NCBI GenBank assembly: GCA_030648005.1
Contig: JAUSIP010000015.1
Location: 1 to 54,315 of the forward strand
From: a bacterium
GTDB taxonomy: Bacteria > Patescibacteriota > Minisyncoccia > Phycocordibacterales > UBA12445
DNA length: 54,315 nucleotides
Direction: 5' to 3'
The notes beneath the pieces were generated by a model. It saw only the letters and a program-made list of their open reading frames with translations. It was not told where the DNA came from and did not search any database. Of this stretch, positions 5,180 through 18,250 are shown piece by piece (the first letter of the stretch is position 1; each line of letters starts with the position of its first letter). A program made the position numbers and the translations under genes.

Positions 5180-6090
5180 CATTTTTTTTAGGGAGTTCCT
5201 CCCGCTCGCGTCAGCGAGCGGATACCTTGTGCACGCACGGGTGAAGAAGCGAGCGAGCGTAGCTTCTGCAAGACTCATTGAGCGCTTTTGTGAGCGAAGC
5301 GAAACAAAAGAGCCAATGAGTGGACAGCTTCTGTAAGAAGGGAGGGGCAAAGCACATAACGATGAGCCACGCAGTGGCTCATTCGGTGGGAATTGAGCCG
5401 CTCTGCGGCTCAAGCTTAAAAAAGCCAGCCCTTCCTACAAGGAGGGGTTTGGGGAGGAATTGGAGGAAGGGCTTGTCCGTACTTCGTCTGCCTTTAGGCA
5501 GACGAGAGTGATAGCGCGCCCACACCTCTTCTCCGGATGTGCCCTGAACTGCAGGCCGAGCAAATCCTAGAATAACCACTGGCATTTTGCTAAACTATGC
5601 TCGGATCTGCGGTGAAGGGCACATATGGAGAAACGCATCGCCATCCACAGGCCTTTTCCTAAGCCGGTCGCCCCGAAACCGCCCGCGCAAAAACGACATC
5701 ACGCAAAGGCTTTGTGGATGGCGTGCGTGCGGAGGGTGTCGCAACACCCGAAGCGGTGGGGGCGCACCATTCGTGAGGTAGAGCGTACGATTAGGTTTTC
5801 AAGTCAGGATTTCCCTCCGCGCGTACGCCAGCAGATTCATTTTTAAAGAAAGTTCGAACTTCGTTCAGGACAGACAGCAAGGAGCGAAGCGAGTTCAAGG
5901 GACCTGGATTCGAACCGCGAAGGGGGTCGGGGAAACTGTAGTTTCCCCATGGAGGAAGGACTGGGTGAGAAGTCATGTTATGACTTCGCAAGACCTTGAG
6001 CATCTCTCAAGATGCGAAAGGTGTACAGTTCCTGTAAGGAAAACCGTGGGTTTCCCAGTTTGTGAGATTCCAGGTCCCGCAGCCAAAAAA
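5180..6090. other. Element E: ~900-bp hairpin-dense intergenic region (candidate large structured RNA or hairpin-array element)
   Basis: At least 12 near-perfect hairpins, e.g. CCGCTCGC/GCGAGCGG, ATGAGCCAC/GTGGCTCAT, TTGAGCCGC/GCGGCTCAA, CGTCTGCCT/AGGCAGACG, ATGTGCCCT/AGGGCACAT, CGCCATCCACA/TGTGGATGGCG, GCGTACG/CGTACGC, GGGACCTGGA/TCCAGGTCCC; no convincing ORF. Confidence 0.75.
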
Positions 6091-11640: not shown

Positions 11641-11714
11641 GCGGTCTTAGCTCAGCTGGTTAGAGCGCTCCCCTGTCACGGGAGAGGTCGTGGGTTCAAG
11701 TCCCATAGACCGCG
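11641..11714 (+). tRNA. tRNA-Asp(GTC), CCA not encoded
   Basis: GCGGTCTTAGCTCAGCTGGTTAGAGCGCTCCCCTGTCACGGGAGAGGTCGTGGGTTCAAGTCCCATAGACCGCG. Confidence 0.96.
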
Positions 11715-11720
11715 CAAAAT

Positions 11721-11748
11721 AAAAAGCTCCCCAAAAGGGAGCTTTTTT
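11721..11748 (+). terminator. Rho-independent terminator after tRNA-Asp
   Basis: AAAAAGCTCCCcaaaaGGGAGCTTTTTT. Confidence 0.9.
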
Positions 11749-11845
11749 CGCGGTCTATGGGACTTGAAGCCCGATTGAGATATTTTAAGAGTGGAACGAA
11801 TTAAAATATCCAATTGGGATACTGAAACTGTAAGTTTCAAGTCCC
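11749..11845. repeat. Element F: inverted copy of the tRNA-Asp 3' end followed by a second sense copy, folding into one hairpin
   Basis: 11749-11768 CGCGGTCTATGGGACTTGAA is the exact reverse complement of 11695-11714; GGGACTTGAA (11759) pairs with TTCAAGTCCC (11836). Confidence 0.85.
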
Positions 11846-13455: not shown

Positions 13456-13461
13456 CTTTGA

Positions 13462-13488
13462 CCCCCGCTAAATTTGGCGGGGGTTTTT
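13462..13488 (+). terminator. Rho-independent terminator
   Basis: CCCCCGCtaaatttGGCGGGGGTTTTT. Confidence 0.9.
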
Positions 13489-13491
13489 AAT

Positions 13492-13746
13492 TTGTTGCGG
13501 AGGCCCTCTTGACCACAAGTTACTAAGTCGCTTCGCTCCTAAGTACTTCCGGTCCTGACTCGCCTGTCCCTACGGGGACATGGCTCCGTCTTCCAATTCG
13601 GGACGCGAGCAAAGTCCCGCATTAGCGAGGATCCTCGATTCGATAAATCGAATCGGGACAGTTTACTCGCTCCTGCAACAATATAAAAAGAAGGTTCAAC
13701 CTTTACGTTAAGGTTGAACCTTCTTTTTATATTGTTGCGGAGGCCC
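13492..13746. repeat. Element D: 15-bp direct repeats of the tRNA-fMet 3' end bounding a ~240-bp hairpin-rich segment
   Basis: TTGTTGCGGAGGCCC at 13492-13506 and 13732-13746 (the latter inside the tRNA). Confidence 0.85.
13670..13743 (-). terminator. Very long hairpin overlapping the tRNA-fMet 3' end
   Basis: CTCCTGCAACAATATAAAAAGAAGGTTCAACCTT / AAGGTTGAACCTTCTTTTTATATTGTTGCGGAG, complementary apart from one extra base. Confidence 0.7.
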
Positions 13747-13805
13747 GAATTGCACGGACGCCTCCAGGTTATGAGCCTGACGAGGTACTACTCCTCCACT
13801 CCGCG
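13735..13805 (-). tRNA. Initiator tRNA-fMet(CAT), CCA not encoded
   Basis: Minus strand CGCGGAGTGGAGGAGTAGTACCTCGTCAGGCTCATAACCTGGAGGCGTCCGTGCAATTCGGGCCTCCGCAA; C1.A72 mismatch typical of initiators. Confidence 0.92.
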
Positions 13806-15960: not shown

Positions 15961-16000
15961 CTACTTTAAAATGCAAATATGTCAACAATATATAAAAAAA

Positions 16001-16019
16001 CCTCGGCAGGATGCCGAGG
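16001..16019 (-). terminator. Terminator of the 16028-18250 gene
   Basis: CCCTCGGCATCCTGCCGAGGTTTTTTT on the minus strand. Confidence 0.85.
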
Positions 16020-16027
16020 GGGTAGGG

Positions 16028-18250
16028 TTACTTGATCGTCTTCTTCAGGTCAACCCACTGACCGATACCAAAACTATCCAAGAACGACCGAATCAATTCG
16101 TCATTGTCGAAAGAAGTGTTAGGATTCAACCCAAGGAAATTAGTCTCAGCAGAAATGATTCGAGCATTAGCTGACCAAACCTTCAAGAGTCCGACGCCGA
16201 AATCTGTAGTCTTACCCTTAGTGTCTTCGAAATCTGACATCGACATGAGAGTTGGGACCTGCATAGCAACTCGTAGCCCCTTATCGGCTTCCCATTCTTC
16301 AACCGACTCTTCAACGTGAAAGTTGGCGACCCAGCACAATTGGGCCTTCTTCATATGCTTAAGCGCGCGTTGACACCAAGTACTAGAGGTAGAAGTTCGT
16401 CCGGCATAATAATGCCGTCCGCCAATTACAAGCCCTGAGGGCATCGTATAGTAAGTCTTATTCTTGATCCTATGAATCTTATCCTCGATAATCTCGCCAA
16501 GTGAAATGTGAGACAGATTAAATTTCTTGAGAATGTTGACTATCCCCTTATAAAGACTGTCACGGAGAGTCTGCTCCATAGTGTGAAGAGGCTTGTGTCC
16601 ATCAGAACTCATCCAATCGTCATGATTACCCTTCCAGAAGAGGAAGTCTATAAGATTATAGCGAATGAGCGCTTCAATATCGGCATTCGTCATACCGACT
16701 CTATCAGCCTGGTTAACACAAGCGAGCTTCTTCTCAAGCCTCATATTGAGTACCTTGAGCATAATCGTAGCGACCATGACACCAACAGCTTGTTCCTGGA
16801 CGGTATTATTCATGCCACTAACAATCTCACCCTTACACTGCAAGTCATGCTTCAGACCCTGAATAAAGTCGCCAACTCCCAAAAGATGAGTAACCTCGTG
16901 CTCTAAGATCAACTTGGGCATCTCATTGACTATGAAATCGTAAGCGGTATGAATACTGCCAGCATGGAGACAAGCGAAACCAAGAAGGACATCCTTAATC
17001 AAAGGTTCACTTGGCCAGGAATACCTGACCTCCTTCTGCAGGAAATCTTGAGACAGGAAATACTTCTGTGAGTCTTCATCGTGATCCACAATCTTGGGAT
17101 TAAGCTTCAAAAGACTCTTTAGCGCCTTCTCAACCTGGAGTCTAGAAACACCAAGATGCTCCTCAAGCCAGCCGAGGCTGGCCTCACTACCGGAAGTTGT
17201 CTTGATCTCCTCAATAACACGCTTCTGGATCTCCGGCATATCAGCAGGAGGAACAGTAAAACTACTTTCATCGCTAATCATGTCTTTCATGCAAATGGTC
17301 TTAACGGTGCAATTCTCCCTACCCGGCACAAAGGTCACAACACTCACTCCAACCATATTTTCGGAAGTCCGAGGATCTTCAAGTTTGTGGAGTGCCGGAA
17401 CAGTTATGCGCTGGAAGGGCATCTCGCCAAAACCTCTGTTGATACTGGATGCACCGCAACCAATGGCGTAGAAATCGCAAAGTGGTTTAGCCGTACGCTT
17501 CATCTCATCCTCAAGAAGACGATCAGCATTGGTAGAATAGTAACCGCTACGCCAGACGGCCTTGGTAGGCACGACTGCAGCGAAAGTTCTACCGCTTCTC
17601 TTTAGCGGGATCTTAAAAGTCGTATTCTCCTCATACCTACTGGATTCATAACGGATATCGTTCTCCTCACGCCTAAGTGTAATGAGAAGCTTAACAACAT
17701 CCCGGCCAATATCTCCGTCGTAAGCCGGACTAGTCACGATATAGATCTTCATCCGTTCACCGTCAGGCCTGAAGAGAGGAGGAAGATCTTTGTTAATCTG
17801 AAGAGCAAGTTGCCCCGTCATCTCAGACAAAATCTGACCAATAGAGCGTGCCCTAGCCCCCTTTATCTTATCCTTTAGATCATCAATCCCCCACTTCTTA
17901 TTGGCGATAGCCTTAGCCATAGAATTGTAAACCTTACTCTTCTTACTCCGTTTATTCAGATTATCCATCATCTTGCGATATTCATCTTCCATCTCGGCAA
18001 GCTTCAGCTTCAGCTTGTCTTGCATCTTCTTCTCTTCATCGCGAATACGGCCAGCCGAATGCCGGCAAGCGCGCTTACTGACAATACCGCCGACAAGTAC
18101 TAGGAAATCAGCCTTGTGCTCCTCGATAGTCTCCTTCATCTTATGAAGAAGACCTACACGGCTACCATCGGCGCCATAGTCCCACCTAGAAGTGAACCCG
18201 ACAATATCTTCGCTCTTACCGTTACCGTTTCCATTAGTCTTGTTCTCCAC
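16028..18250 (-). CDS. 740-aa metallophosphoesterase-like protein with internal helical/wHTH segment
   Basis: GVGDFIQGL...FLFWKGNHDDW (GD.../GNHD metal-site motifs); internal EASLGWLEEHLGVSRLQVEKALKSLLK; GTG start after AAAGGAGGTT. Confidence 0.6.
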   Translation of the reverse strand: MENKTNGNGNGKSEDIVGFTSRWDYGADGSRVGLLHKMKETIEEHKADFLVLVGGIVSKRACRHSAGRIRDEEKKMQDKLKLKLAEMEDEYRKMMDNLNKRSKKSKVYNSMAKAIANKKWGIDDLKDKIKGARARSIGQILSEMTGQLALQINKDLPPLFRPDGERMKIYIVTSPAYDGDIGRDVVKLLITLRREENDIRYESSRYEENTTFKIPLKRSGRTFAAVVPTKAVWRSGYYSTNADRLLEDEMKRTAKPLCDFYAIGCGASSINRGFGEMPFQRITVPALHKLEDPRTSENMVGVSVVTFVPGRENCTVKTICMKDMISDESSFTVPPADMPEIQKRVIEEIKTTSGSEASLGWLEEHLGVSRLQVEKALKSLLKLNPKIVDHDEDSQKYFLSQDFLQKEVRYSWPSEPLIKDVLLGFACLHAGSIHTAYDFIVNEMPKLILEHEVTHLLGVGDFIQGLKHDLQCKGEIVSGMNNTVQEQAVGVMVATIMLKVLNMRLEKKLACVNQADRVGMTNADIEALIRYNLIDFLFWKGNHDDWMSSDGHKPLHTMEQTLRDSLYKGIVNILKKFNLSHISLGEIIEDKIHRIKNKTYYTMPSGLVIGGRHYYAGRTSTSSTWCQRALKHMKKAQLCWVANFHVEESVEEWEADKGLRVAMQVPTLMSMSDFEDTKGKTTDFGVGLLKVWSANARIISAETNFLGLNPNTSFDNDELIRSFLDSFGIGQWVDLKKTIK

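Follow-up and report, generated by a model that had tools for sequence, protein, structure and literature searches.

Downstream of its initiator tRNA gene, a Patescibacteria genome carries a hairpin, antisense stretches and a second copy of the tRNA 3' end, which raises the question of what kind of element follows this gene and how it came there. We addressed it in a contig of 54,315 nucleotides (JAUSIP010000015.1, the whole of which we call the window), in the genome to which this contig belongs (G000) and in related genomes.

Anatomy of the unit behind the initiator tRNA gene

In agreement with the initial annotation, the end of tRNA-fMet recurs 240 bp away as a 15-bp direct repeat. GGGCCTCCGCAACAA occurs exactly twice, at 13746-13732 and 13506-13492, and the wider direct repeat around it spans 23 nt with 91% identity. 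When up to two mismatches were allowed, a 14-mer matched at these two sites only, with 0.19 matches expected, and 1 of 100 shuffled sequences reached two. The whole fMet segment folds with -156.4 kcal/mol, as compared to a mean of -95 kcal/mol for shuffled sequences (z = -11.5). The rarity of the 14-mer in shuffles and the fold z-scores rule out a chance origin of the repeat.

A hairpin of about 33 bp, whose far arm ends with the complement of the tRNA tail, had also been described. The hairpin is real: an inverted repeat of 32 nt (13675-13706 and 13707-13738) is 97% complementary, and the region 13670-13754 folded alone gives -49.6 kcal/mol with z = -13.5. Its far arm reads TGTTGCAGGAG. However, only the outermost part of the hairpin pairs with the tRNA tail, while the bulk is a predicted two-way intrinsic terminator with an A-tract and a T-tract. 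A similar hairpin is found elsewhere in the same genome (G000:C19:27442). A second antisense block at 13603-13594 (A2) had been overlooked, and a small hairpin lies between it and the first block, A1. The order of tRNA end, antisense and second sense copy given in the initial annotation holds, but it lacked the antisense to the T-arm, the adaptation to each tRNA and the covarying core. The features in the window are collected in Table 1.

Table 1. Features of the tRNA-associated units in the window
Feature	Position	Strand	Basis or remark
tRNA-fMet, Met(CAT)	13734-13805	minus	ARAGORN; Rfam RF00005, 50.0 bits
S, tRNA-fMet 3' end from T-loop position 57	about 13751-13734	minus	ARAGORN; Rfam RF00005
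Spacer and predicted two-way intrinsic-terminator hairpin (AAAAAGAAGGTTCAACCTT...AAGGTTGAACCTTCTTTTT)	13681-13733	minus	inverted repeat 97%; fold z -13.5
A1, antisense to tRNA 3' tail / acceptor 3' strand (TGTTGCAGGAG)	13670-13683	minus	
P3 hairpin (GCGAGtAAACTG ... CTTTGCTCGC)	13604-13670	minus	comparison with other copies
Nested 44-bp repeat TCCCGATTCGATTTATCGAATCGAGGATCCTCGCTAATGCGGGA within P3	13615-13658	minus	alignment with copies in own genome
A2, T-arm antisense; TCCCGAATTG pairs with CAATTCGGG of tRNA-fMet	13594-13603	minus	
Type I core, P1 (tandem-GA motif) and P2 (AGTACTTA / TTAGTAACT helix, bulged A)	13511-13593	minus	model R1, 76.3 bits, E 1.7e-13; covariation
S', sense copy of tRNA-fMet 3' end (GGGCCTCCGCAACAA), direct repeat	13492-13506	minus	
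Second terminator hairpin (CCCCCGCC...GCGGGGG)	13460-13490	minus	matches terminator position in empty G001 locus
tRNA-Asp with second unit, different core	11641-11715	plus	
A, antisense of tRNA-Asp 3' end, 28 nt, 93% complementary	11744-11771	plus	
Type III core (GCCCGATTGAG...)	11769-11834	plus	also after tRNA-Leu of own genome (L143, L109)
Sense copy TTTCAAGTCCC of tRNA-Asp T-arm	11835-11845	plus	

Read in the sense of the tRNA, the units consist of S, usually the terminator hairpin, A1, often P3, A2, the core and S'. They measure about 150-250 bp and contain no genes. P3 is a hairpin of the GCGAGCAAACTGCTTTGCTCGC type, A2 ends with ..TTGAA or ..TCGAA, and S' begins at T-loop position 57. 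In other copies P3 lies at the boundary of acceptor and T-stem; in the window it is split by the nested repeat. The latter belongs to a dispersed repeat, TGTCCCGATTCGATTTATCGAATCGAGGATCCTCG, which sits in the P3 loop here and is also found on contigs C5, C7, C8, C11-C15 and C19 of the same genome, with more than ten clear copies, often paired head-to-head around GAGGATCCTC. The first 35 nt of the nested repeat recur more than ten times in this genome.

The type I core comprises two main arms, P1 with a tandem-GA internal loop at its base and P2, a long helix whose conserved strands AGTACTTA and TTAGTAACT carry a bulged A and a U-U mismatch. Covariation was evaluated on an alignment of 27 core sequences, which are related copies. 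Here, 86.7% of the helix cells are paired, compared to 77.5% after shuffling and 30-44% with slid partners, and 66 double changes fall into the helices, compared to 21.5 after shuffling. On this comparative basis the core qualifies as a conserved, structured, RNA-like fold with compensatory base changes. At the gathering threshold, Rfam 15 detects only tRNA in the window and ten element loci, and only tRNA, tmRNA and one upstream group I intron in 16 further element loci. Matches to microRNA precursors with E values of 1e-7 to 1e-3 are far under the gathering scores and merely reflect the long hairpin. Hammerhead, group I and group II ribozymes were set aside, as no fit of the core to their consensus motifs was seen and Rfam gave no match to the core.

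At least three further core types, documented less fully than type I, occupy the same place. Type II (GGGGGTCGGGGA...GTGGAGGAAGG) follows Pro, Gly, Thr, Asp, Arg and Met tRNAs, type III the tRNA-Asp of the window and one tRNA-Leu of the same genome, and type IV is rarer. The claim that the fMet locus follows the same logic as tRNA-Asp is therefore correct for the flanks but not for the cores, which are of type I and type III, respectively; model R1 of the type I core scores no better than E = 10 at tRNA-Asp. A further stretch of the window, 5880-6085, holds a type II core with a T-arm antisense (GGGACCTGGATTCGAACC) and a sense copy (GAGATTCCAGGTCCC), split by a type IV insert. No tRNA was detected upstream of it, and it is perhaps an orphan unit. 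Elsewhere in the window (16028-18250), an ORF of 740 aa without Pfam matches adjoins the genes for L7/L12 and L10.

Units behind tRNA and tmRNA genes across the order

For searches in other genomes, a covariance model (R1) was built from the core alone. As it contains no tRNA sequence, the association with tRNA genes found with it is not circular. A tRNA or tmRNA gene is located on the same strand within 900 nt upstream, mostly at 40-100 nt, for 171 of 206 distinct R1 copies, while about 0.3% of random points are expected within 100 nt of such a gene. The host genes of the 171 copies comprise 20 tRNA labels and tmRNA, i.e. 21 kinds. The core copies inspected first all follow a same-strand tRNA (Arg, Trp, Leu, Asp, Phe, Lys, Gln, Gly, Glu, His) or tmRNA gene. 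Several of the remaining copies follow a cut or missed tmRNA (L228, by Rfam) or a group I intron (L242), or are located where a contig ends. The arrangement first noticed at the initiator tRNA and at tRNA-Asp thus recurs in many genomes, both at tmRNA and at the majority of the other tRNA identities. The element accounts for the odd partial tRNA copies after tRNA genes in Patescibacteria genomes.

Some sites stand apart. The group I intron of L242 (G035, 453-652; RF00028, 62.8 bits) is directly upstream of a type I element and presumably sits in a split tRNA gene. The 3' flank of tmRNA is a frequent site (G000, G109, G206, G344, G399) with one or two tandem units, the first of which is common to congeners, so that this unit may have been inherited vertically. 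At L138 and L108, type I cores lie within apparently broken tRNA genes, with a Leu-like anticodon arm and a Ser-like D/anticodon region, respectively, which suggests that other tRNA arms can serve as targets.

R1 matches at E <=0.001 were obtained in 289 of 397 genomes of the order, with at least one match each; the copy counts per genome in this search, up to about 11, are lower bounds. The window's genome has seven copies at E < 0.1, and in one genus the element is present in all 16 species with 7 to 28 copies each. Such counts depend on which genomes were sampled. Across the phylum, the R1 element is largely limited to the order, and the matches outside it are weaker. A pattern scan of named genomes gave 22 stretches; the informative names are Patescibacteria, Parcubacteria, Paceibacterota, Yonathbacteria, Kaiserbacteria and Nomurabacteria, and the other stretches are labelled merely 'bacterium'. 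An origin from phages or plasmids was set aside, as neither viral contigs, searched with the exact pattern, nor phage and plasmid records contained a match to the element.

Do the units move? The initial annotation had pointed to the likeness with the att duplication of integrative elements and proposed a comparison of relatives for an empty site. Such a site exists: one congener, G001, has the same fMet gene and dnaJ-like neighbor without the element (locus L009), and the second terminator of the window occupies the position of the sole terminator in G001. The unit thus behaves as an insertion with an att-like duplication. With this empty site and with homologous segments at other tRNAs, neither of the two absences that would together have spoken against the proposal was encountered. 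Across the order, type I or II units occupy the fMet site in 5 of about 30 genomes inspected (G000, G014, G021, G013 and G016).

The kinship of the cores points in the same direction. For 34 of 158 cores (21.5%) the nearest core is in the same genome, compared to 3.2% after shuffling (maximum 8.2%), while the nearest core of another genome is at the same tRNA type in 13%, compared to 6.4% after shuffling. Tandem and nested units are frequent. Some of the duplications are exact over a considerable length, with 48 nt in the sense direction at L069 and about 67 nt for another core type at the fMet gene of G016. At L251, one copy of an exact repeat that begins in the T-stem and includes the terminator and A precedes a type I core, and the other copy precedes a type II core. 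At L069, A contains two mismatches though the sense repeat is exact, and A was therefore probably not copied freshly at insertion. Taken together, these sequence comparisons support mobility well as the main mode of spread. Some loci are occupied in several sister species, for which a purely mobile view does not account.

Antisense strands matched to the local tRNA

To evaluate the match between A2 and the tRNA, 137 first units with a recognisable T-loop were used, 120 of which match at least 7 of 11 T-loop/T-stem positions. In these 120 units, A2 matches its own tRNA at 10.53 of 11 positions on average, while permuted tRNAs give 8.04, with a maximum of 8.32 in 2000 permutations. The match is equal in units with P3 (10.50) and without it (10.55). 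In units outside the 120, e.g. many at tRNA-Glu, the junction is located at the end of the tRNA. For 54 of the 120, S' no longer matches but A2 still does so at 10 or 11 of 11 positions; hence, A keeps following the tRNA rather than S'.

The remaining A2 differences are biased towards wobble pairs. Transitions that keep a wobble pair occur at 23 of 433 sites and those that break the pair at 7 of 527 (Fisher p = 0.0006, shared descent among loci ignored). In S', which served as a control with the same strand and classes, the numbers are 16 of 432 and 13 of 272 (p = 0.56). As this bias is missing in S', strand-biased mutation cannot explain the excess in A2, and a simple mutational strand bias was rejected. 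At orthologous tmRNA sites of three congeners, the T-stem changes from ..TTCTCG.. to ..TTCCCC.., and A2 changes alongside from CGAG to GGGG. Statistically, these data support that A may pair as RNA with the host tRNA.

Explanations for the element

The reading that we consider probable, with considerable reservation, is that the fMet segment belongs to a large, undescribed family of small mobile structured elements that follow tRNA and tmRNA genes in one order of Patescibacteria, insert in the T-loop and have a tRNA-sense RNA that pairs with the host tRNA. Its movement and function we infer as follows. The element would enter the T-loop between positions 56 and 57. The tRNA would stay whole, and its 3' end, often together with the terminator, would be present twice after entry, as with integrative elements. 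Cores would move between the tRNA genes of a genome, and the tRNA-sense RNA would pair via A with the 3' half of that tRNA or its gene. Selection may maintain this pairing, either for target recognition or for folding in cis. Against this reading, no transposition was observed, no enzyme is tied to the element, and DNA-level correction of imperfect palindromes could also match A to the tRNA. That the A strand acts as a guide is a conjecture that we hold to be unlikely. In this view, the element RNA would find tRNA genes by pairing with their T-loop, which is universal, and with their T-stem and acceptor, which are specific; it would thereby direct its insertion or copying behind new tRNA genes without a dedicated transposase, and it would re-adapt to each tRNA.

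Three enzyme families were considered as movers. Y1_Tnp (PF01797) was detected in 41 of 60 relatives, but the complete genome G014 lacks it despite having six copies of the element. A RAYT or Y1 transposase was therefore rejected as a required mover, and the dependence on a RAYT-like transposase contemplated in the initial annotation finds no support. RVT_1 (PF00078) is present in 30 of 60 relatives and absent from the complete genomes G014, G058, G030 and G019, which all have many copies; its absence from complete carriers such as G014 and G058 eliminated reverse transcriptase as a required mover. Two reverse transcriptases are encoded in the 757-kb genome of the window (G000:C19:3977-4591 and 15976-16587), which we take, by eye, to resemble the type of diversity-generating retroelements (DGR). 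Phage_integrase (PF00589) is present in 57 of 60 genomes. The tyrosine recombinase sought elsewhere in the window's genome is there: its sole PF00589 gene, XerC-like in length and sequence as judged by eye, is distant and outside any element. No unit carries an integrase. Among the three families, only a XerC-type tyrosine recombinase is thus a near-universal candidate, and no link between it and the element was found.

Of the other explanations, one is possible, although we doubt it: the units could be miniature integrative elements that are moved in trans by a T-loop-crossing tyrosine recombinase. S and S' would correspond to attL and attR, antisense and core to binding or folding arms, and the tRNA match would result incidentally from the identity of the att sites. 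Integrative elements and genomic islands at tRNA genes duplicate the tRNA 3' end as attL/attR (PMC9897764, PMC8371274), and the T stem-loop is one of three tRNA regions that serve as attachment sites (PMC8371274). In agreement with this, the direct repeats begin at the T-loop and run beyond the tRNA end, the tRNA is restored, tandem units look like accretion at one att site, and PF00589 is nearly universal. However, the one recombinase of the window's genome is XerC-like and outside any element, att identity would bind a core to one tRNA type, while the cores group by genome, and antisense that is retained after loss of S' is left unexplained.

A cis-acting regulatory RNA of tRNA and tmRNA genes, in which read-through RNA forms S:A and the core and controls maturation or termination, with spread by duplication and gene conversion, appears to us unlikely, to the same degree as the guide function of A. 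It would explain the RNA-type covariation, the wobble-biased pairing on the tRNA strand, the units after tmRNA in several families and the common change of A and tRNA at orthologous tmRNA sites. The sporadic presence (at fMet in 5 of roughly 30 genomes), the different tRNAs used in different genomes, the nested and tandem copies and the several core types in one place do not fit.

We regard it as improbable that the arrangement is a product of DNA replication, in which fold-back at the terminator hairpin yields S-hairpin-A and repeated template switching maintains A as a perfect reverse copy of S that has no function. The stretch from the tRNA to the terminator is often part of the fold-back (L136, L204), and palindrome correction would let A track the tRNA. 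But this gives no conserved covarying core common across the order, A2 is equally matched where P3 splits the antisense, the mismatch bias is of the wobble kind and missing in S', and the terminator hairpin is missing in some copies (L087, L096). RNA-mediated retroposition, in which pre-tRNA and terminator would be copied by a reverse transcriptase stopping at the modified T-loop, joined to the core and inserted, agrees with duplications that begin at the T-loop and extend approximately to the end of the transcript (L069, L251) but is very improbable, given the complete many-copy genomes without an RVT_1 protein (G014, G058, G030, G019) and two reverse transcriptases in the window's genome that show no link to the element.

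Among known systems, tRNA integrative elements and genomic islands resemble the units in tRNA insertion, restored tRNA, duplicated 3' end and tandem accretion (PMC9897764, PMC8371274). The present units, however, are about 0.2 kb long, compared to roughly 9-23 kb in the cited cases (PMC9897764, PMC8371274), and have no integrase or genes, while they contain internal tRNA antisense and an RNA-like core, with cores that are not bound to one tRNA. MITEs and the RAYT/Y1-moved REP/BIME are likewise short, gene-less, dispersed and hairpin-rich, with several to dozens per genome, whereas the present units are fixed after tRNA/tmRNA, adapt their flanks to the local tRNA and occur without Y1_Tnp (G014). 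Folded strands with covarying stems and array-like tandem units by a fixed anchor are shared with integron attC sites and cassette arrays; here, cassette genes are missing, the anchor is a tRNA and the stem sequence is the tRNA 3' end.

T-box riboswitches and other tRNA-binding RNAs are structured RNAs that also recognise one tRNA via pairing. A T-box pairs with the anticodon and NCCA, while the antisense described here covers T-arm and acceptor, and the unit sits after the tRNA gene itself with no downstream gene to control; Rfam gave no T-box match in the window. The tRNA primer-binding sites of LTR retroelements are similarly complementary to the tRNA 3' end up to the T-loop, but several carriers have no reverse transcriptase, there are no LTRs, and the unit adjoins the gene of the matched tRNA. 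No description of tRNA-matched hairpin elements was found in the open-access literature and, judged against this literature and Rfam 15, the kind of element is undescribed.

If the preferred reading of a mobile element behind tRNA and tmRNA genes is true, hundreds of small-genome Patescibacteria would host a mobile structured element that tracks tRNA genes via base pairing. This would be relevant to the choice of safe insertion sites by parasites of reduced genomes and to the expression of tRNA and tmRNA in the candidate phyla radiation, and it may be relevant to RNA-guided DNA insertion as well.
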